28,378 bases of DNA, from the NCBI GenBank assembly GCA_900548465.1, contig URKY01000033.1, forward strand, positions 1-28,378, in the 5' to 3' direction. A program made the position numbers and the translations under genes. The notes beneath the pieces are model-generated. The model had not been told where the DNA came from. It ran no database searches and saw nothing but the letters and a program-made list of their open reading frames with translations. Of this stretch, positions 2,604 through 18,885 are shown piece after piece; positions within the stretch are counted from its first letter, which is position 1; the number at the start of each line of letters is the position of its first letter. Source of the DNA: an uncultured Eubacterium sp. Lineage in GTDB: Bacteria; Bacillota; Clostridia; Lachnospirales; Lachnospiraceae.

Positions 2604-3167
2604 TTATTCAGTCTTTCTATATTTTTCAACAGCTTCATGGAATTGATGAGTATTGGCATATCCGCAACATTTTAGCTCTGGACAAAAACCGCGATAAACA
2701 CATGTTGGCACACACTTACTAACAAGAACCGGATCTATCTTTTTTAGTTCTTGCAACATTGCTGTCCATGCTTCTCTAGTTTCTTTTGAAGCACAATTAC
2801 ATAAACGTACTCGTGAAATAGCCATTATTTCTTGTGCATTTGCAGTCATATCCATTTCATTTAATTCTCCTTGCAAATGTTCTCCTCTAGGAATTTGTGA
2901 ACCGGTACGATCCGGTCGTTGAGTATGAACAAACTTTTCACATCCTATATGATGACGAACGAAATGCACTGTTACCCATTGAGGTATTTGTTCCCATGTC
3001 CATTCATATTCTACCAAACGAATGGGAGAATGTTCTGCTAATAACATTTTTGCTTTCCATGAGTCTGAAGGTTCTTTTTTTAATGCTGACTTTCCTACGG
3101 TTCTGCGTGCTGCATTTAAAGCACGGCTCCAAGAAGTAACCGCATTTAGTCTAGTTACTTTAATCAT
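2604..3167 (-). CDS. thyX: Divergent flavin-dependent thymidylate synthase (ThyX/Thy1 family)
   Basis: ThyX makes dTMP from dUMP with FAD, NADPH and methylene-tetrahydrofolate. The 187 residues show a family-like LLAEHSPIRLVEYEW (about 42-56) followed by VRHHIGCEKFVHTQR (70-84), which occupies the place of the ThyX signature RHRxxSxNxxSxRY. The match is inexact: Cys76 stands where the motif has a serine, and the closing arginine is shifted by one residue. The C-terminal third is cysteine-rich (CVPTCVYRGFCPELKCCGY, 152-170), which is not typical of bacterial ThyX and may bind a metal. Its position directly upstream of nrdD supports a nucleotide-synthesis role. Family assignment is fairly secure; activity as a true thymidylate synthase is inference. 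Confidence 0.75.
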   Translation of the reverse strand: MIKVTRLNAVTSWSRALNAARRTVGKSALKKEPSDSWKAKMLLAEHSPIRLVEYEWTWEQIPQWVTVHFVRHHIGCEKFVHTQRPDRTGSQIPRGEHLQGELNEMDMTANAQEIMAISRVRLCNCASKETREAWTAMLQELKKIDPVLVSKCVPTCVYRGFCPELKCCGYANTHQFHEAVEKYRKTE

Positions 3168-7966: not shown

Positions 7967-8633
7967 CTGCTTCTGAAAAATCTAAGTCTAATTCCAGATC
8001 TCCTGAATAGGAATTAAAAGCGGCATTAATAATCTCCACTTTATCATCTTTGAATTCAGTTTGTAACTTTTCTGCTAATCCTGAATGACTAAGGTTGGCA
8101 TGAAGATATTTAATTAAACCCACACCTGAAGTTGGATACCTATAGTTGTTGGACGGAACACATTGTAACAATAAGTTTCGGTTCTGAATATTTGCATTTA
8201 TATTTACCATATCAGATATTGCATTGGACCATAAATATGCCACCCCTTTATTTATTTGTATAAGATAATAATCTTGACTAACCATTATTAATTGTGAAGC
8301 ATACAAAATCTTATCTTGTAGGCCAAATAGCCTTGTATGCACTTCAAACCATTCAGAGTTATCAGTTGGGTTTATAACTATACGAATATTACCACCACCA
8401 AAGTCTCTACTAAAACGTATTTTTATTGGTTTATAGATTGGTGTATATGGTATCTTTATTTGCACACCAATCGTGTAAAGTTGCTTTATATCAAAGTTGG
8501 AAGGGAGTATTATTTGAGCGGTAAGTTGTAAATCAGTTTCTTCGATCCATTCAAACAAATATTCTTCTAAAGAGTTTTGATTTTTTAAAACTATATCACC
8601 CGTAATTGTATTTACATAAATATCTGTGCGCAT
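7953..8633 (-). CDS. Baseplate protein with a C-terminal W/gp25-like region
   Basis: 226 residues. The N-terminal 130 are a beta-rich domain I cannot name (IVLKNQNSLEEYLFEW, FSRDFGGGNIRIV). The C-terminal 75 (YRYPTSGVGLIKYLHANLS, then LQTEFKDDKVEIINAAFNS, then a strand ending ELDLDFSEA) follow the layout of W/gp25-type wedge proteins: a TSGVGL turn, a helix, a second helix, then paired strands. Gene order supports this, since W precedes J and I in P2-like phages and this gene precedes the J and I candidates. The match is by pattern and order only. It begins 21 bp past the stop of the 609-residue fibre gene. Confidence 0.45.
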   Translation of the reverse strand: MRTDIYVNTITGDIVLKNQNSLEEYLFEWIEETDLQLTAQIILPSNFDIKQLYTIGVQIKIPYTPIYKPIKIRFSRDFGGGNIRIVINPTDNSEWFEVHTRLFGLQDKILYASQLIMVSQDYYLIQINKGVAYLWSNAISDMVNINANIQNRNLLLQCVPSNNYRYPTSGVGLIKYLHANLSHSGLAEKLQTEFKDDKVEIINAAFNSYSGDLELDLDFSEADAGV

Positions 8634-10546: not shown

Positions 10547-10900
10547 CTATTTCTTAATCTCTTCTAATATTTCCTTGGCCATACGCTTTGCTTCCACTCT
10601 CCACATTTGCATGTCATTCCATTCTTTTTGATGCTCACTATCTTCATCTTCTAGGAGGTAATTATTAATAATGGCTTGCATTGCATCATCGGAGTAACGT
10701 CCATGAATAATAGCTGAAACCAATTGGCTATATGTGGGTGTTCCAACTGGAAGGGTTATCTCACACCATTTGTATTGTTCGTTTTCACCTTCTTTTACTA
10801 TATGAACATCAAATGCAATTGTGTATTGACGCAACCCTAATTTTATATTGTGTCGTATGCGTTGAGGTTGCTCATTACCTTGATTATAAGTTATAAACAT
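10547..10900 (-). CDS. Small protein trailing the DGR reverse transcriptase
   Basis: 117 residues from the ATG at 10900. A longer frame opens at 10960, but its extra 20 residues lie inside the RT coding region and look like alternative-frame sequence, so I prefer the internal start, which overlaps the RT stop by 10 bp. The protein has a beta-type first half (RQYTIAFDVHIV, KWCEITLPVGTPTYSQL) and a helical second half with GRYSDDAMQAIINNYL followed by an acidic and then basic helix. I recall similar small proteins next to tail genes of gut phages but know no function. Coupling to the RT makes a DGR accessory or a tail-assembly role both possible. Confidence 0.65.
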   Translation of the reverse strand: MFITYNQGNEQPQRIRHNIKLGLRQYTIAFDVHIVKEGENEQYKWCEITLPVGTPTYSQLVSAIIHGRYSDDAMQAIINNYLLEDEDSEHQKEWNDMQMWRVEAKRMAKEILEEIKK

Positions 10901-12312
10901 TGTACTGTGTTTTTTATTTTTACAACTTGAAATTTTCCTTGAATATAGCAAGCCTTCCAAAAATAATGTAGTTCTGAAAATGCTTTGCGCCTGATTCCGT
11001 ATGACTGATAATGAATTAAGAAACCTAAATAAGAGTTTATAGACCTCACATTGGCATATATAGCTTCCTTGTCACAGTTTTTACATGCTTCTTCTAAATA
11101 ACTTACAGCATTAATAAAGTTTCCAACAGTTCGATTCGATAAGTAAGCTCTACCCGGCTTAATTACTCCTCCTACCATTTTTATTCCTTTTTTAACTTCT
11201 TGAATATAGATTTTATTAGGGTGCATTTGAATATTTAAAATATATCGTAGTTGATTCCTAGAAGCTCTTTTGAAATAAATTGCATCTTCCTTAGTTTTGC
11301 ACACAAAGCTAAAATCATCTACAAAACGTACATATTTGGCTCCTCTTTCTTCTGCTGCTTTAATAGCCCATTCATCAAAAAATGACATATAAAAATTGGC
11401 GAATAATTGACTGGTTAGGTTGCCTATTGGTTCACCTCTCATCCATTCAATGTAAAACAAGCTTTTGTTTTTAGGTAGTATTCTCCATAATTTTAAATTC
11501 CCTTGGCGTATGCAATCATCTTGTGGACGATGTCGTACAATTACTTCTGTAAGCCAAAGCACTAAATCTAAATCCTGTTCATATATAGTTCCTTTCCAAT
11601 AGTTCCATTTTTCTTTGATAAATGGCAATAAGTACTTTAATAAGCATTCACAATCAATTGACATGAAAAATCCTTTAATATCAAATTGAGCATACCAAGC
11701 CTCATGGGAATAATTATCAGAGACTTCAATAGTATTTTTTGTCAACTGATCGATACATGCAAATGTTCCAAAACCCTTTCGACAGTTAAATGATACATTT
11801 CCGTGCTCAACAAAACGTGCCTCAAACAGTGGCTCTAAGCGTAGGCACAACCAATGTTGTACAATACGGTCACGGAAATTTGCAGCAAACACTTCCCGTA
11901 ATTTAGGACGGGTAACTATAAAACAAGTACTTGTTGTTGGTCTATATGTTCGTTCATAAACTTCTCTCGCTAAATCTAATAGATCTTCATGCCAAATAAG
12001 TCTATACATAACACATTGTGAACTTGTCTTTTTTTTGGCACAGCAATCATCTAACGCATCAAACCATCCCTCAACATATTTATCGTTAAGTGCTGCAACC
12101 GCCCTCACCATGTTACTGTTGTACTTGTTGTTGTTGTTGAAGTTGCCATTACTAAAGTTCACGTTCCAGCTGTTGTTCTGACTGTTCTCACTGCTACTCC
12201 AGTACCGGCTTGCGGTTATTGCGTGTACTATCTTATTCTTAACTAGGTCTTTAACGCTTGGTAAAGGCCCAGTGACACGCCCATTTTTCAATAAAGATGT
12301 CCCTGTTATCAT
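10891..12312 (-). CDS. DGR reverse transcriptase (open frame includes the template repeat)
   Basis: It copies the TR RNA into cDNA with errors at adenines for transfer to the VR. Counting from 12312, the RT core runs from about residue 79 (YVEGWFDALDDC) to the end. CFIVTRPKLREVFAANFRDRIVQHWL (129-155, quoted in parts) is the DGR-type fingers region. Motif A is FDIKGFF with Asp211, motif B is GEPIGNLTSQLFAN (293-306) with the DGR-specific SQ in place of SP, and motif C is FVDDF with Asp332 and Asp333. A later KMVGGVI fits motif E. The frame starts 12 bp after the Avd stop and reads through the TR in its first 74 residues. Two starts are possible: ATG 12312, which would translate the TR, or ATG 12111, inside the TR's invariant end, which gives 406 residues and fits normal DGR RTs better. 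Confidence 0.93.
   Translation of the reverse strand: MITGTSLLKNGRVTGPLPSVKDLVKNKIVHAITASRYWSSSENSQNNSWNVNFSNGNFNNNNKYNSNMVRAVAALNDKYVEGWFDALDDCCAKKKTSSQCVMYRLIWHEDLLDLAREVYERTYRPTTSTCFIVTRPKLREVFAANFRDRIVQHWLCLRLEPLFEARFVEHGNVSFNCRKGFGTFACIDQLTKNTIEVSDNYSHEAWYAQFDIKGFFMSIDCECLLKYLLPFIKEKWNYWKGTIYEQDLDLVLWLTEVIVRHRPQDDCIRQGNLKLWRILPKNKSLFYIEWMRGEPIGNLTSQLFANFYMSFFDEWAIKAAEERGAKYVRFVDDFSFVCKTKEDAIYFKRASRNQLRYILNIQMHPNKIYIQEVKKGIKMVGGVIKPGRAYLSNRTVGNFINAVSYLEEACKNCDKEAIYANVRSINSYLGFLIHYQSYGIRRKAFSELHYFWKACYIQGKFQVVKIKNTVQCL
12091..12206 (-). repeat. DGR template repeat (TR)
   Basis: This 116-bp segment aligns without gaps to the VR at 12862-12977, a constant offset of 771. In the coding strand it has 13 AAY (Asn) codons, where a random first or second base gives access to many residues. 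All 17 differences from the VR fall on TR adenines; by eye count TR has 43 adenines in this span. The right end of the coding strand (12112-12091) is GC-rich and identical in both copies, as expected for the homing-initiation (IMH) region. It sits between the Avd-like gene and the RT core, the usual DGR place, and is the untouched donor. Confidence 0.97.
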
Positions 12313-12324
12313 AGTCGTAACCGT

Positions 12325-12726
12325 TCAACAGGTCTGCTGCTCCAACACTTTGCTTCTCCAGCTTTTAATATGCTTTGAAATTTCCTTTAAAGATTCAGCA
12401 AAATGTGGCATTTGCTTGTTGCTAATTATGCGTGTATGAGGACTCCGATTTGACCACTCTTTTAAGGTGTCAATGCAAGTTTTCACTGTACGCATTTGCA
12501 AATAAAATGAATTAATAAGTTCAAGTTTGGAATCAGGATCTTCTTCATTTAAAGCCAATCCTATCACTGTTAATCCATCAAGCAGAGTGTCTATGAGACG
12601 TTTGCTTAATTGACGAATTCCTACACTATTAGGGGTTCGTTCTACCATTTCTATACAGAGTAACATTAAATTTTCTGTTTCTCTGTAAATAGGTGCACTT
12701 CCTGCATTACGAATTGTTCTTGCCAT
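12325..12726 (-). CDS. avd: Avd-like DGR accessory variability determinant
   Basis: 133 residues, predicted as a bundle of four long helices (about 13-32, 38-60, 66-90 and 103-128) with many surface Arg and Lys, the size and shape of BPP-1 Avd (128 residues) and of the wider S23-type four-helix-bundle family. Avd forms a pentameric barrel that binds the DGR reverse transcriptase and the TR RNA and is needed for retrohoming in BPP-1. Its position between the VR gene and TR/RT is the canonical cassette order. It starts with MARTIRNAGS and ends 12 bp before the frame that leads into the RT. Confidence 0.85.
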   Translation of the reverse strand: MARTIRNAGSAPIYRETENLMLLCIEMVERTPNSVGIRQLSKRLIDTLLDGLTVIGLALNEEDPDSKLELINSFYLQMRTVKTCIDTLKEWSNRSPHTRIISNKQMPHFAESLKEISKHIKSWRSKVLEQQTC

Positions 12727-12855
12727 AATTAAAAGATTTTATTCACAATGTGTCTTATTACATATAGTTTATTTACGAATACTTTATTTTTTCTGTAGAG
12801 GTTTACAATTATGGCATATTTATTTTTGTGGAGCGTCAAAAGACGCTCCACTATA
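12727..12855. other. Intergenic region between the variable gene and avd
   Basis: About 129 bp separating the end of the adhesin gene from the Avd start. It holds the post-VR hairpin at 12828-12851 and otherwise AT-rich DNA. I found no promoter that matches the Bacteroides consensus well enough to call, so avd and the RT may be transcribed by read-through from the adhesin gene or from an unrecognised promoter. Confidence 0.6.
12828..12851 (-). repeat. Perfect hairpin just downstream of VR (probable DGR cruciform)
   Basis: Arms 12828-12837 and 12842-12851 form a perfect 10-bp stem with a four-base loop (TTTT on the minus strand). It begins 10 bp past the coding-strand end of the VR and just after the adhesin stop codon. 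BPP-1 and related DGRs carry a similar short hairpin/cruciform with a four-base loop at this place, which raises retrohoming efficiency. No T-run follows the stem on either strand, so it is not a good intrinsic terminator. Confidence 0.8.
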
Positions 12856-15800
12856 CTAAAATGCTGCAACCGCCCTCACCATGCCACTGCTGCACTTGTT
12901 GCTGAAGGTGAAGTAGCCACTACTAAAGCCCACGTACCAGCTGCCGCTCTGACTGTACTCACTGCTACTCCAGTACCAAGAATTAGAAAAATCGTTCAAA
13001 ATACCGGCATCTATTGCTTTTTGAAAAATTGCACCTATTTTATCATCATCATAATTCACTCCTTGCCTAGCGTGCCAATACATACGCATAAGTTCACCAA
13101 CAGATGGTAGGTACCAATTATGATATTTAAATTTATTTGCCAATTCTTCGCCTGCTTTTACTGTAGGTTGATAAGCATAGCATTTGCTGGCAGCAGGATA
13201 ATAAAATTGTTGATATTTACTAAGATTTTCATTGTTAGCAATTATGTTATTTATATACTGGGTTAACATCGCTTGTTCAGTATATAAATCAGTTGCTTCA
13301 GGTATCGGCAAATTAACTCCAGAATCTTCTAAGATTTTATTTCTATGTTGAATAATTTTTAAAGTTTTTGCTAAACCGATAGGAACTTCGTCACCTTTTT
13401 TATAGGCACCTGATAAAATGGCTAAATCCGCAGCCAATTCCTCTTTTCCTGTATTAGTCGTACCTGGAGCAGCGATACCATCTCCAACAGCAGCTGTTTT
13501 AACATCTGAATTTACAAATCCGTCAATTGTATTTTCATCTACATAATTATCATACCTTATATAGTTAGGAGAGGTATGACCTTGGTCGTCATATTCTGTA
13601 GGTTGTAAGCCGGTCTGTGTAATGTTAGCAATTGAACTTATATCATATACACTATAATTAACATCATCTTGTAATTCAATAGGATAAATTGCATATTGTT
13701 TATTCCACTCTTCTGTTTGTCCTGTATTTTGAGGATAAAGCCCCCATACTATACCTGAATTTTCAAGATTTGATAATGCTACCATACGTCTATCATTGGC
13801 ATCTGCTGGATTTATGTAAAAACAAATTCCAACTACGGTTTTTCCAGCAGTTGTAGGACCATAAGTTCCATCATAAAATACATAATCTCCGAGATGAGCA
13901 CGTCTGGGGTATAAACCAATATCCCATGATGCTTCAAGCACTTCACCATTCGTTTTTGTTAGATAACATCTTAAAGTTGTATGTGGAGCCAATGTATCTT
14001 CATCTCCTAATTGAGATACATTGATAACGCAATAATCTTTTGACGTATTGACTATTTTTGCATACAAATTGGTATCTAATGACCAACGAATACTAACTAC
14101 ATCATTCCCATTAGTGGTATTCGGCTTACAGTAAAAAGTGTGTTCACCTGTAGAATAAATGTATTGGCTTCCTTTGATTTCTATAGCTGCAATAGGAGTT
14201 GAGTAGTAAGTAATATGAAGATTGTTGTTTTCATCGTCTACATTTCCCCAATGATACAACCAGTCAATTTTATTGTTAAAATTAGGCCGGTTGGTAGTAT
14301 TGTTTATTACTGCTATTTTTCCAGATACACTACTATCTGTAATAGAAGCCAAATAGTTAATCATATAAAGAGAAACCTCGGTCCAGTTTATACTTGCTAA
14401 CTTTAAATAATTCAACGGTGCGTTACCTGTAAAGCATAAATTGAATATGGTACGCGAATCTACAATTCCTGCGCCAATTGACAGACTTTGCATTCGGTCA
14501 GCCCCTTCCAAAGTGATAGTTCTCAAATTGGGTTGTTGATCTAAAAACAAAGATGTCAGAGTCCCAGGAAGATGAACTTCTTCTAAATATTCGGTAGCTG
14601 GAAGAACAACGGAAGACAACATTGTTCCTACTAAATTCAACATTCTAAGTTTAAGCAAAATAGATAAATCTAACCCACCTACTAAACTAGCGACACGTTT
14701 TAATACTAGTTCTTGCAACAAAGGGGCAGTAATAGTCATACTGGTAGGACGGAATTCAACAACATCTTTTCCATCCACATGAAAGGCTGTTAGGCGAGCA
14801 CCGCTTAAATTAAATGTTTCCCCTAAACTTTTGTCTGTAAAGTCACCAATGGAACGCATATAATCAATACCATTTAAGAAAATATTAGTATTGCCATCTG
14901 AAGTTCCAACATTGACATCGTATGTTTCTCCGGCTTTAATACGTGGAGACAGTGCGTTACCAACCCCATAAGATAGTGTCGAACCTATGGCAAATGAGGG
15001 GTACATCCAAATATGTGGTACAATAGAAAATTTAAATTGTGGACGTGTACCATCTGTTTTTATTACAGACCGGAAGTTTAATGAGCCTGCTGATCCTTCA
15101 CCGTCACGCCTTCCAAAGTCTCCAAAGGCTGCATAAGAAGATATGTAGGTAAGTCTGCGTGCAACCCATTGCATTTCTGCTTGTAATCCATCTCCTAAAC
15201 TTTGTGTTATGGGATCTGTACCATTTGTGTATTTATTTTCCGGGTCTGAACTCACATAGGCGGTTCTGGCACGTTCATATACAAGACGGGCCACTTCATT
15301 GTAAGCAACGGCTGGGAAATAACGTTGTACGTAAAAATAATATTTTTCCATACAGCCCATTAAAGTTCCATCATCGCTTAATTTAAGCATTGCTTGTAAT
15401 ATAGAGCGCATATTGGTACGCAATTCATCTGGAAAGGCATTTTCCATTTGGTTAAATAGTGCATTTCCTTCGCTATTCCAATAAAAACCTCCATCATTGT
15501 TTTTATCATGTTCTTCTACATAGTAAGGTTTTTCTCTTTGCCCTACATTATTTACAGGAAATATTGTGTCCAAATCATCTTGATGCCAACCAATTAAATG
15601 AGTTTTTGGGTCAACATAAAAATATATATTCTTTCCTCTGTTATCACTGGCTGCAATTAACTTACAAAAATTCATAGCAAAATGAGTTTCTGTAAGATTA
15701 AAATATTTTCCTGCATCAGCCTTGAACAATGCTATTCTAGCCGTTTTGAACGATGAGTTAATTGCATCCCAATCTGTACCGCTGGCAATATTCCCGCATT

Positions 15801-18800
15801 GTTCGTTGATATTTACAGTCGAATATCTTCCATTTTCAATCTTTTCAGTGCCTGCACCCACCCAAGTAGAAGTTATGAAATCATATCTGAATAAATCGAA
15901 CTGTGCATTGTTACGCCCTGCTTTGGTCAGCCAATAATGCTTGGAGGTATCAAGATTTTCTGCTGCATTTAAATCTTCAATGGTACCGTTGAAATAATCT
16001 ATATTATCATAATGCTTAAAGACAAAGTTAAATCCACTTTTGATAGGGGCGATCTTATTGGTATCCCCAAAAACCAGACTCATTTGCTTTTCGCCGTTAT
16101 ACATCCAATCTTCTTCACCTTCTAAAGTGACATCTTCATCAATCCAAGGTACGCGGCACATCACCAAAGCACGGTCATTATCAGCTCCTTCCAGGCATAC
16201 ATAATCTGGAAATTTTGTTTTGTCGTATCCGAATGTCGGTTTGTCTCCCTTACCTGGTCCAAAAGTCATAAAAGATTTAAATTGTGGTTCGGAATTCTCA
16301 TCTTCTTGTACAAAGAACAAAAACGGTTTTTGAAGTACAGCTACACGACAATTTTCAAAACCTTCTGTATTAGTAATGGAATTACCTCCACATACAGCTT
16401 TAAATAAATCATTAAATAGAGCTGTAGAACCTATTTTATGACTTTGTGCTGAACTTGCAAAATTTACTTTCCCTACCAATTTGAGTGCTCCGGGTACATC
16501 GTTGGTTAACTGATAACATTTACCACGATTTACTCCATTCTCATCAACCCAATATCCATCTTCATTGAAGCCCCATTGTCCATTCCACCAAAAATACAAC
16601 ATAGACGATGTTCCTTGTCCTTTCTCATTCATGTCATATAGCGTACCACTATTCTCTGGTTTTCCAGGAATATGGATAATTAAGGTACCATTAAATTTAT
16701 CCTTTTTGGTATTTCCATAAGTGGCATATTTCCCTTTCCAAAGGATAACGTTGTATTTTTCATAAACAAGATCGTAGCTGATAGTATTACCATTAAGAAT
16801 ACTATTAGAATCGCGAAATGCTATTTTTTCTTCACTATTATCTAAGGATGCCATATAGTTTTGGCGCACATCATTAGCTGTGAGTGCTTTCTTATACACC
16901 TTAATACTGTAAATGTCAATGTCGGCTCCAGAACTACCAATACGGATGCCTTGTGATGTTTGCTTTCCGTCTACATATTGTACGAAAGTGTCGTCTGTTG
17001 CATAGTTGATTTCACGGTTAATAATTCCATTTAAGAAAATGCGGCAATAGTTTTGTCCGGTGCTAGATAAGTTATACAATAAATTAACCGCGATTTTAGT
17101 ACGTACACCTTCATTGTAGCCGACATCTTGATTTTTACGGGTTACTTTAGATTGGGTCATGAAACAGGCATCAATAGGTTTCATTTCCCAACCTAGCGGA
17201 TTATTATCTTTTGTGTAAGAACACATGCGTAATATCGGTTCATCTTCGTTGGTTACATTGCGAATAGCATAGTCTATTTCAAATGTAAGAGAACCTGTTT
17301 TTTGAGCTTGGATAAAGTCGGAGAACGTCTCATAATCAATTGCTATGTTTCTTCCACTAGGAACACGCAAACATTTGATCCCATTATCGTCTTCAACCCA
17401 ACCATCACTAATAAAACCAAAATTTTCAAAGGTCGCGGGAACATTCTCGCCTGAAACTGTATTAATAATAGTATCTGGGTGGGTTTCTGTATTACTACGT
17501 AGTTTTGGATTGATAATTAAATCGGCACCATCAGTCGGGGCAAAATTTTGGGAGTTATCTACATTAAAACTAATACGATCACGCAAATATTTTTCTCCAG
17601 TGCTAAATAACATATAAGCACTGAAATTCGTTTCTTTACTTTCGATTTCTATCATATTGCCAAATGTGTAAACCACACCATTTTGGGCTTGCTGTTCAGT
17701 GTAAGACAGATAATTCTCAACCTCTTGAATGTCTGTTAATTTAAAAGTAACAGGTAATACATCTGAACCTGGGTTATATATTGCCCATTGGAAAAATTGA
17801 ACGGATGTCCAGTTTACAAGAGACTCGACTATCTTGTTCAACATGATATATGGAGTTTTATTGTCAGGATCTGAAACTACCATAACCTGTGAAACAATGT
17901 GTTCACTTTCCACATCTGTGCCGTCTACAGATAACCAAGCCTCAATTTCATGTACTCCATGAGACATAACTTTAACAGAATCGCCTTCAGTGTCAGTTAC
18001 GTCAAACTGGTTTGGAGTTTCTGTGTACTCAACTTTACCAACAGCATATTGAACAGAACGTACACCGCCTTCACCACTGATTTTTAAATTTAGTGTTTTG
18101 GCTACAGCACCGGTATATGTATATAACAAAGACATAGCAGCACCAGTAATAGGCTGCTGCCACTCATTTCGGAACGTAAGTTTCAATTCTGTTTTTGTAA
18201 CACTTTGGAACACTACATAAGTTGTGGTGCTTTGTGTTTGGTCTCCGGTTACAATGATACGTAATTGACAGGTTCCGCTGTTAAGTAATCCACTAATATC
18301 TACATCTGTATAAGTATCACTGTCAGCTTCTACACTCTTAATTGCCATTGTGCCAATTGTACGCCATGAATCAGAAGCGGAAGAACGCCTTTGAATAGTC
18401 ATCGTACCGTCTTCATAGGTATTTGCATATTTCCCAGTAACAGGATTGTATGTTTGGGAAGTAAAACGCATTTTTAGAACTACGCTACCATCAATGCTTA
18501 CATAATTTGTTTGATTACTGGCCGTAGTTAATTCTACAATATTCATTACCCCCTGTTCGTCACTAATAGGGATAGTAACATCAAGCAATTTTAGTGCTTG
18601 ATTCTCATCAGGGTCAGCAAGCCATTCATTGTATGTGTTTTTATTAGCAAATGCTCGAATATGATAAAACCCATCCGGATCTTTTGTCATAGGAGGAATA
18701 TGACCAATCTTATTGTTTTCATGGTCTTGTAAATAGCTCTTTATAAACTTTTGCACAGCCTCCCCAGAGTAGGGGAGAAGATTCGTTTCATCAGGTGCTG

Positions 18801-18885
18801 CGGGGATGGTATTGTTTTTATTGCCACCCCAATCCTCTGTAAACTTGCCAACAGGAATTTCGTCAGTTCTGAATTTCTTAGCCAT
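12856..18885 (-). CDS. Giant tail adhesin, DGR target with C-terminal lectin-like domain
   Basis: 2009 residues, the largest protein here and presumably the host-recognition tail fibre. Rough domain order: N-terminal attachment (1-100); Ig-like beta domains (110-450); a LamG/concanavalin-like domain (530-675, ending ALTANDVRQNYM); a CotH-like region with KGQGTSSM (about 755) and a long conserved body to about 1350; leucine-rich strands (1377-1475); further Ig-like segments; and a DUF1566/Fib_succ-type C-type lectin domain (about 1660-2009) starting near GDYVFYDGTYG and containing WYLPSVGEL (about 1928) and YWSSSE. The VR covers the final residues (1970-2008). It lies downstream of the small tail genes and upstream of avd. 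It probably acts at the tail tip, binding surface glycan or protein. Individual domain limits are approximate. Confidence 0.9.
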   Translation of the reverse strand: MAKKFRTDEIPVGKFTEDWGGNKNNTIPAAPDETNLLPYSGEAVQKFIKSYLQDHENNKIGHIPPMTKDPDGFYHIRAFANKNTYNEWLADPDENQALKLLDVTIPISDEQGVMNIVELTTASNQTNYVSIDGSVVLKMRFTSQTYNPVTGKYANTYEDGTMTIQRRSSASDSWRTIGTMAIKSVEADSDTYTDVDISGLLNSGTCQLRIIVTGDQTQSTTTYVVFQSVTKTELKLTFRNEWQQPITGAAMSLLYTYTGAVAKTLNLKISGEGGVRSVQYAVGKVEYTETPNQFDVTDTEGDSVKVMSHGVHEIEAWLSVDGTDVESEHIVSQVMVVSDPDNKTPYIMLNKIVESLVNWTSVQFFQWAIYNPGSDVLPVTFKLTDIQEVENYLSYTEQQAQNGVVYTFGNMIEIESKETNFSAYMLFSTGEKYLRDRISFNVDNSQNFAPTDGADLIINPKLRSNTETHPDTIINTVSGENVPATFENFGFISDGWVEDDNGIKCLRVPSGRNIAIDYETFSDFIQAQKTGSLTFEIDYAIRNVTNEDEPILRMCSYTKDNNPLGWEMKPIDACFMTQSKVTRKNQDVGYNEGVRTKIAVNLLYNLSSTGQNYCRIFLNGIINREINYATDDTFVQYVDGKQTSQGIRIGSSGADIDIYSIKVYKKALTANDVRQNYMASLDNSEEKIAFRDSNSILNGNTISYDLVYEKYNVILWKGKYATYGNTKKDKFNGTLIIHIPGKPENSGTLYDMNEKGQGTSSMLYFWWNGQWGFNEDGYWVDENGVNRGKCYQLTNDVPGALKLVGKVNFASSAQSHKIGSTALFNDLFKAVCGGNSITNTEGFENCRVAVLQKPFLFFVQEDENSEPQFKSFMTFGPGKGDKPTFGYDKTKFPDYVCLEGADNDRALVMCRVPWIDEDVTLEGEEDWMYNGEKQMSLVFGDTNKIAPIKSGFNFVFKHYDNIDYFNGTIEDLNAAENLDTSKHYWLTKAGRNNAQFDLFRYDFITSTWVGAGTEKIENGRYSTVNINEQCGNIASGTDWDAINSSFKTARIALFKADAGKYFNLTETHFAMNFCKLIAASDNRGKNIYFYVDPKTHLIGWHQDDLDTIFPVNNVGQREKPYYVEEHDKNNDGGFYWNSEGNALFNQMENAFPDELRTNMRSILQAMLKLSDDGTLMGCMEKYYFYVQRYFPAVAYNEVARLVYERARTAYVSSDPENKYTNGTDPITQSLGDGLQAEMQWVARRLTYISSYAAFGDFGRRDGEGSAGSLNFRSVIKTDGTRPQFKFSIVPHIWMYPSFAIGSTLSYGVGNALSPRIKAGETYDVNVGTSDGNTNIFLNGIDYMRSIGDFTDKSLGETFNLSGARLTAFHVDGKDVVEFRPTSMTITAPLLQELVLKRVASLVGGLDLSILLKLRMLNLVGTMLSSVVLPATEYLEEVHLPGTLTSLFLDQQPNLRTITLEGADRMQSLSIGAGIVDSRTIFNLCFTGNAPLNYLKLASINWTEVSLYMINYLASITDSSVSGKIAVINNTTNRPNFNNKIDWLYHWGNVDDENNNLHITYYSTPIAAIEIKGSQYIYSTGEHTFYCKPNTTNGNDVVSIRWSLDTNLYAKIVNTSKDYCVINVSQLGDEDTLAPHTTLRCYLTKTNGEVLEASWDIGLYPRRAHLGDYVFYDGTYGPTTAGKTVVGICFYINPADANDRRMVALSNLENSGIVWGLYPQNTGQTEEWNKQYAIYPIELQDDVNYSVYDISSIANITQTGLQPTEYDDQGHTSPNYIRYDNYVDENTIDGFVNSDVKTAAVGDGIAAPGTTNTGKEELAADLAILSGAYKKGDEVPIGLAKTLKIIQHRNKILEDSGVNLPIPEATDLYTEQAMLTQYINNIIANNENLSKYQQFYYPAASKCYAYQPTVKAGEELANKFKYHNWYLPSVGELMRMYWHARQGVNYDDDKIGAIFQKAIDAGILNDFSNSWYWSSSEYSQSGSWYVGFSSGYFTFSNKCSSGMVRAVAAF
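12862..12977 (-). repeat. DGR variable repeat (VR) at the adhesin C-terminus
   Basis: The last 116 bases of sense sequence before the final Phe codon of the adhesin, matching the TR with 99 of 116 identities. The 17 substitutions change 13 residues: 12 Asn codons became Tyr, Ser, Gly, Thr or Phe and one Tyr became Cys, while one TR Asn codon is retained. The frame YWSSSE...MVRAVAA is preserved. The invariant block (coding end, 12882-12862) is the candidate IMH. The varied residues are mostly small or aromatic, as at binding surfaces. Confidence 0.97.

Follow-up and report, generated by a model that had tools for sequence, protein, structure and literature searches.

The best studied mechanism of a diversity-generating retroelement (DGR) is that of Bordetella phage BPP-1 (NC_005357), in which an accessory gene (avd), a template repeat (TR) and a reverse transcriptase (RT) gene follow one another in that order, adenines are mutagenized and a hairpin lies beyond the variable repeat (VR), as laid out in the available part of PMC3240598. 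In BPP-1 avd adjoins the TR, and a 144-nt gap without an annotated gene separates the TR (2887-3020) from the RT gene brt (1756-2742). The accessible text of PMC12875486 describes the BPP-1 TR as lying between avd on its 5' side, a motif at the end of which halts cDNA synthesis, and a spacer on its 3' side, which serves to recruit bRT-Avd and to prime the cDNA. The TR is called non-coding in the portions of PMC12386605 and PMC4372165 available to us. Here, we describe a DGR in a 28,378-nt contig of an uncultured Eubacterium sp. (URKY01000033.1, assembly GCA_900548465.1; the window) that shares the gene order, the adenine mutagenesis and the post-VR hairpin with BPP-1. In this element the TR lies within the reading frame of the RT gene and is preceded by a structured RNA. 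We consider it probable that this is the DGR of a gut phage and that its RT gene is translated continuously from a structured leader, across the TR, to the RT core.

All features of the element are on the minus strand. The RT open reading frame (ORF; 10891..12312, 473 aa) consists of a leader (codons 1-35), the TR (codons 36-74; 12091..12206) and the RT core from about codon 80, and it matches RVT_1 (2.2e-12) and the phage RT family phrog_1423 (6.5e-63). The earlier note on this DNA had overlooked that the TR, as defined by its alignment with the VR, is in the RT frame, and also the structured RNA that precedes it. The start codon that we propose (12310..12312) lies 5' of both the RNA element and the TR.

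Relatives were drawn from viral contigs (80 of 119 kept) and genome contigs (80 of at least 96). TR/VR pairs were identified in windows of 60 nt that contained five or more adenine differences and no more than one at another base, and the RT was located with a core profile. A TR near the core was present in 144 loci, of which the 103 that were unique and had a core of at least 250 aa were placed in a tree. The clade that includes the window (support 97) has 46 loci, and the TR and the RT core share a frame in every one of them: 44 by script, L046, in which the ORF is stop-free through the TR and within the RT ORF while the VR frame is not callable, and L107, for which the frame was judged by eye. 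With L046 and L107 taken as in frame, the frame state never changes within the clade, compared with ten changes over the full tree, where 57 tips lie outside the clade. The TR is out of frame in the closest loci outside it (L043, L054, L059, L050, L052, L045 and L049). Parsimony over 45 clade loci, with hand-corrected length values for six, gives 21 changes in leader length and 14 in the distance from TR to core, every one of them in whole codons; some of the 14 fall within the TR, where the VR too requires whole codons. In L107, a Bacteroidales contig, the RT is frameshifted soon after the start of the core (near 8238), and the leader, the TR and the start of the core are in frame.

The position of start codons follows the same frame. 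Of 44 unique loci, 42 have an ATG in the RT frame no more than 27 codons 5' of the RNA element and the other two have a GTG, compared with 0/44 and 2/44 for an ATG in the two other frames. When the interval is narrowed to 6-14 codons upstream of the element, 37 loci have an ATG in the RT frame and none has one in either of the others. A start downstream is the alternative: in an ordinary DGR the TR would be an untranslated leader, open and in frame by chance, and the RT would begin at an ATG or GTG where the TR ends on its 3' side. The VR frame already demands a stop-free TR, the window has an ATG and a GTG at RT codons 68-69, with a GTG near there in many relatives, and the leader peptide is only weakly constrained, all of which would suit this explanation. 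It does not, however, account for a frame that is kept in 46/46 loci without a change of state, for leader lengths that vary only by whole codons or for the bias of the upstream ATG towards the RT frame. Moreover, the late start codon is absent in four of the 44 loci: L056 has no ATG, GTG or TTG from the TR Trp codon to the RT core, and L001, L023 and L048 have none from 18 codons past that codon onward. We therefore regard an untranslated TR as unlikely. The pattern instead argues for translation of the RT through the TR.

The RNA element (12214..12285, with the paired region at about 12221-12280) is encoded within RT codons 10-33, and its structure lies 14 nt 5' of the TR. A two-stem structure was proposed by RNAalifold in both subclades of the in-frame clade. 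The subclades were counted apart because in alignment A2, which spans both, the outer stem is out of register from one to the other. In the window subclade (15 sequences, 12 pairs) 99.4% of cells are paired, seven pairs show double changes and there are 32 double-change cells versus 8.9 in shuffles (0/500 as high). In the other subclade (13 sequences, 13 pairs) 92.9% of cells are paired, eight pairs show double changes and there are 26 double-change cells versus 7.1 in shuffles (again 0/500 as high).

Two RNA models, R1 from the window subclade and R2 from the other, were searched against 79 sources (953,718 bases). All 17 R1 matches at E<=5 lie on the RT strand shortly 5' of the TR (47 nt upstream in L004), as do eight of the ten R2 matches; the remaining two (E 3 and 3.8) are elsewhere. 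Among the 20 in-frame loci outside both training sets, 18 were matched by R1 and/or R2, several of them being close kin of training sequences and four (L022, L036, L037 and L100) having already entered the initial fold. Outside the clade, R1 had no match in 58 of 64 sources and weak ones (E 0.004-4.3) in six near relatives (L049, L050 and L059-L062), and the RNA may therefore predate the fusion of the reading frames. R1 has no match in BPP-1, Bacuni phage F2, L043, L045, L052 or L054. Rfam has no match in the window at gathering score; at E<=1 in the region 11900-13000 there is a single match, on the other strand at the post-VR hairpin, which scores 18.5 bits where the cut-off is 80.

Conservation at silent sites coincides with this part of the gene. 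It is 1.3-2.1 times that expected from codon 1 to about codon 78 and 0.85-1.14 times after codon 80; in avd, with ORFs chosen by position, it is 0.86-1.14. Over 44 loci the ratio of nonsynonymous to silent variation (pN/pS) is 0.86 in the leader versus 0.49 in the RT core, and silent sites are the more conserved in the leader. The silent-site scans were also inspected for a conserved RNA element in avd or in the 5' coding region of the RT, and showed none. Protein conservation was rejected as the main cause of the recurrent leader sequence LNGRxTG..LVKNK, as the silent sites there are more conserved than those of the RT core; GTTAAG motifs that recur in relatives with a leader closed in the RT frame (by eye) likewise count against a cause at the protein level.

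These measurements also bear on whether the TR-encoded segment is a functional domain of the RT, such as a lectin-like strand or an N-terminal arm. RT residues 24-72 match Lcl_C with 28.3 bits, under the cut-off of 34.9, and the segment is retained across RTs that are about 50% identical. The match is, however, explained by the homology of TR and VR, the constraint sits at silent sites with a leader pN/pS of 0.86, and alignment of the RT with a solved DGR RT is possible from about position 80 onward. A domain function for the segment is thus very unlikely. The solved structure concerned is 8ub7, the best solved relative, which we take to be the BPP-1 RT; profile positions 80-231 align to positions 16-159 of its chain.

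The template relationship itself is confirmed. On realignment of the minus strand, the TR and the VR (12862..12977, the final codons of the target gene) are 116 nt long, gap-free and offset by 771, and differ at 17 positions, all 17 at TR adenines, exactly as the earlier note had claimed. The changes from TR to VR are 11 A>G, five A>T and one A>C. The TR contains 43 adenines in 116 bases, and the probability that 17 random sites would all land on A is 4.1e-9. When the alignment is widened to 126 nt (12081-12206), the number of differences rises to 21, three of them at non-A positions, so that 116 nt is a fair boundary for the repeats. The codon list gives 13 altered residues between the two translations, the number stated before. 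TR codons at the varying sites are AAC, AAT or TAC, which cannot become stop codons by adenine mutation; the RT frame would therefore stay open even with a mutated TR. Variation in the window VR and in a sister target occurs only in these codons; TR adenines in AGC, AGT, CAG, GAG and AAG codons are the same in the window VR, and the matching residues are also the same in the sister target.

That target, P0121 (2009 aa), is the closest found and differs from the window protein at 37 residues, 13 of 39 in the VR and 24 of 1970 elsewhere (33% versus 1.2% of residues; odds ratio 40.5, p 1.6e-14). All 13 VR differences fall within the 27 residues that have an A at TR codon position 1 or 2, and none falls among the 12 others. 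Together with the 17/17 TR/VR differences, this adenine-confined variation indicates that the DGR was used recently, which upholds the claim of a recently used retroelement; from the sequences its present activity is inferred. The earlier note had named an unchanged TR beside a diverse VR in sister genomes as a check of present activity, and the protein-level comparison was less uniform here. The search yielded 4698 RT proteins; of the 120 listed, nine share 94-100% identity with the window RT, and in four of these (P0013, P0014, P0015 and P0057) the TR translation equals that of the window. P0020 has one Asn codon fewer in the TR, P0030 has adenine-type changes within it, and P0043, P0046 and P0051 (588 aa) have another, lectin-like N-terminus ahead of a partly changed TR that continues into the RT. 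P0121 and the nine RTs are not known to share genomes.

Since TR and VR share their ends, assembly chimerism between them would be the simplest cause of the changed TRs in these five RTs. The N-termini of P0043, P0046 and P0051 suggest that this phage group has another target gene, together with TR/VR chimerism in assemblies. A further RT-embedded TR with adenine-type changes, as in P0030, occurs at L008:10821-10925, with an extra codon and one non-A change; both true overwriting of the TR and an assembly chimera are possible for P0030 and L008. We rejected L008 as evidence of TR self-mutation because of the extra TR codon and a change at a T relative to L007 (by eye), which fit strain recombination or assembly chimerism. 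The adenine-type TR changes in these database RTs count in favour of a decayed or inactive DGR with old differences. Nevertheless, the 116-nt alignment of the window TR and VR holds no silent or non-A drift, the sister VR differs at many times the rate of the rest of its protein and the RT ORF is intact, so that decay is the least credible of the explanations considered and can be given very little weight.

Several points weigh against read-through of the TR into the RT core. The loci were collected through TR-peptide patterns and RT homology, with 80 of 119 and 80 of at least 96 entries kept, and the RT-core tree is of a 'quick' kind. The in-frame ATG at codon 68, within the window TR, is a possible RT start. 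The pN/pS of the leader implies that its peptide is hardly constrained and that its conservation is mainly at the RNA level. For the RNA, pairing falls to 21-49% in both subclades when the 3' side is slid, a control against which the structures are favoured because they were drawn on the same sequences in which they were then counted. One of five measures, that of further pair types in the window subclade, equals the shuffles (16 versus 15.8), the single-sequence fold of the window element has a z of only -1.4, and L032 and L065 are matched by neither RNA model. Lastly, an altered TR or N-terminus in five of the nine near-identical RTs is contrary to a constant TR.

In the mechanism that we propose, adenine-mutagenic retrohoming would diversify the C-terminal lectin-like tip of the 2009-aa tail protein. 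The RT gene would begin 5' of the TR, and translation would run through the structured leader and the TR to the RT core. With such read-through one RNA region would be coding sequence, scaffold and template, so that the RT mRNA appears to combine the roles of message, scaffold and template. The likeliest role of the two-stem RNA 5' of the TR would be that of the docking site of RT-Avd and of the point at which cDNA synthesis stops, and hence of the 5' end of the cDNA; it may partly replace the structured spacer found 3' of the TR in BPP-1. A spacer of the BPP-1 type was not found between TR and RT core, where the ORF has no gap and silent sites show no constraint past codon 80, although the region may hold a structure that lacks sequence conservation. 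Because the element sits just past the start codon (6-14 codons in most relatives), RT-Avd bound to it could limit RT translation and so damp its own synthesis. We put forward more tentatively, as an idea with somewhat less than even prospects, that in this clade the RT mRNA has become its own template ribonucleoprotein, in which RT-Avd assembling in cis on the two-stem RNA would set the cDNA 5' end and shut off RT translation, and the 3' spacer, which BPP-1 requires, would not be needed.

The remaining parts of the cassette fit a DGR. The RT contains the motifs IGNLTSQ and YVRFVDD, the first of which bears out the DGR-type RT with an SQ motif claimed earlier; the accessible text of PMC12386605 gives GxxxSQ as a mark of most DGR RTs. 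The target gene (12856..18885) encodes 2009 aa with a C-terminal Lcl_C domain (residues 1903-2006, E 2.5e-9), so that by profile the target, a probable tail adhesin, has a lectin fold and the VR closes the 3' end of its gene. In most clade loci the target is about 1700-2350 aa long, often cut by the fetched flank, and a few are shorter. The post-VR inverted repeat (12828..12851), also noted before, has a 10-bp stem and a 4-nt UUUU loop and folds at -20.5 kcal/mol (z -7.7; 0/200 shuffles fold as well); the loop is unlike the BPP-1 consensus, which is given as GRNA in the available part of PMC3240598. By the sequence criteria of adenine-directed TR/VR differences, RT type, a VR at the end of a lectin-fold gene and a post-VR hairpin or cruciform, assignment of the element as a DGR is supported.

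The Avd protein named in the earlier note is the part that was recovered less firmly. An ORF of 133 aa is in the right place (12325..12726), its stop 12 nt from the start of the RT ORF, and an ORF, picked by position, is present at this place in 44 relatives; in phage BS-TP1 the product there is annotated 'Four helix bundle protein'. Its profile matches are weak (phrog_3206, E 0.006; NF033474, E 2.2e-4 and 21.5 bits versus a cut-off of 80), and it has no match in Pfam or PADLOC. At its 3' end the RT ORF runs into the following ORF (10547-10960), with which it overlaps; in P0013 and P0014 the two are fused into one 588-aa protein, and P0015 is of equal length.

The carrier is probably a tailed phage of Bacteroidales. 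Titles of the clade genome contigs include Muribaculaceae, Bacteroidales, Palleniella and Prevotella, and the recorded host of phage BS-TP1 is Bacteroides salyersiae BG8; against this host assignment, the close relative L093 sits in a Saccharibacteria bin. The anaerobic ribonucleotide reductase at 400-2601 is 76% identical to its counterpart in uncultured phage cr111_1, and the baseplate hub has matches in the phage collection only in BS-TP1 and one faecal phage record. These matches point to different phages and thus to a mosaic genome. The locus itself gave no match to the phage collection with megablast or blastn, and the nearest virus record (G001) was checked and yielded nothing.

As a DGR the element is ordinary; what appears to be new is the template inside the frame of the RT gene together with an upstream RNA that is not listed in Rfam. 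Among the papers listed in literature searches we found no report of a conserved in-frame TR or of this pre-TR RNA, although priority is not certain. The available portions of PMC8144416, PMC6642488, PMC6199706, PMC4159848, PMC12629997 and PMC10907252 do not mention an in-frame TR. An RT spread across three frames is reported in the accessible part of PMC8008677. Structural group 3 of DiGReF, as presented in the available text of PMC3521204, comes with no claim of translation, frame conservation or an RNA element.

Among the closest described systems is that of Bacteroides phage BS-TP1 (PQ571274; L190), for which we found no publication. BS-TP1 has the same gene order, a TR in frame in its annotated RT (gp25), a 2187-aa target and the pre-TR RNA (R2, 65 bits), and its record puts the RT start upstream of the TR, as we propose for the window. 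It differs in an RT that is about 43% identical over residues 85-450 and in a VR one codon longer than the TR, an in-frame length variation seen also in L004. Bacuni phage F2 (MT806186; PMC8143477) shares the order of avd, TR and RT and the adenine mutagenesis; unlike in the window, its TR is in a separate small ORF, its RT has its own ATG after the TR and neither R1 nor R2 matches. A 'TR containing gene' next to the RT is named in the accessible text of PMC8143477. Relative to BPP-1, the window has its TR inside the RT ORF, no more than about 25 nt from the RT core, and its structured RNA lies upstream. The clade thus combines a template in an apparently translated gene with a well supported RNA structure on the opposite side of the template from that of BPP-1. 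This layout makes it possible to test how RT-Avd finds its template, where the cDNA stops and how translation is separated from reverse transcription on one RNA, and phage BS-TP1, with the same layout, could serve as a test system.

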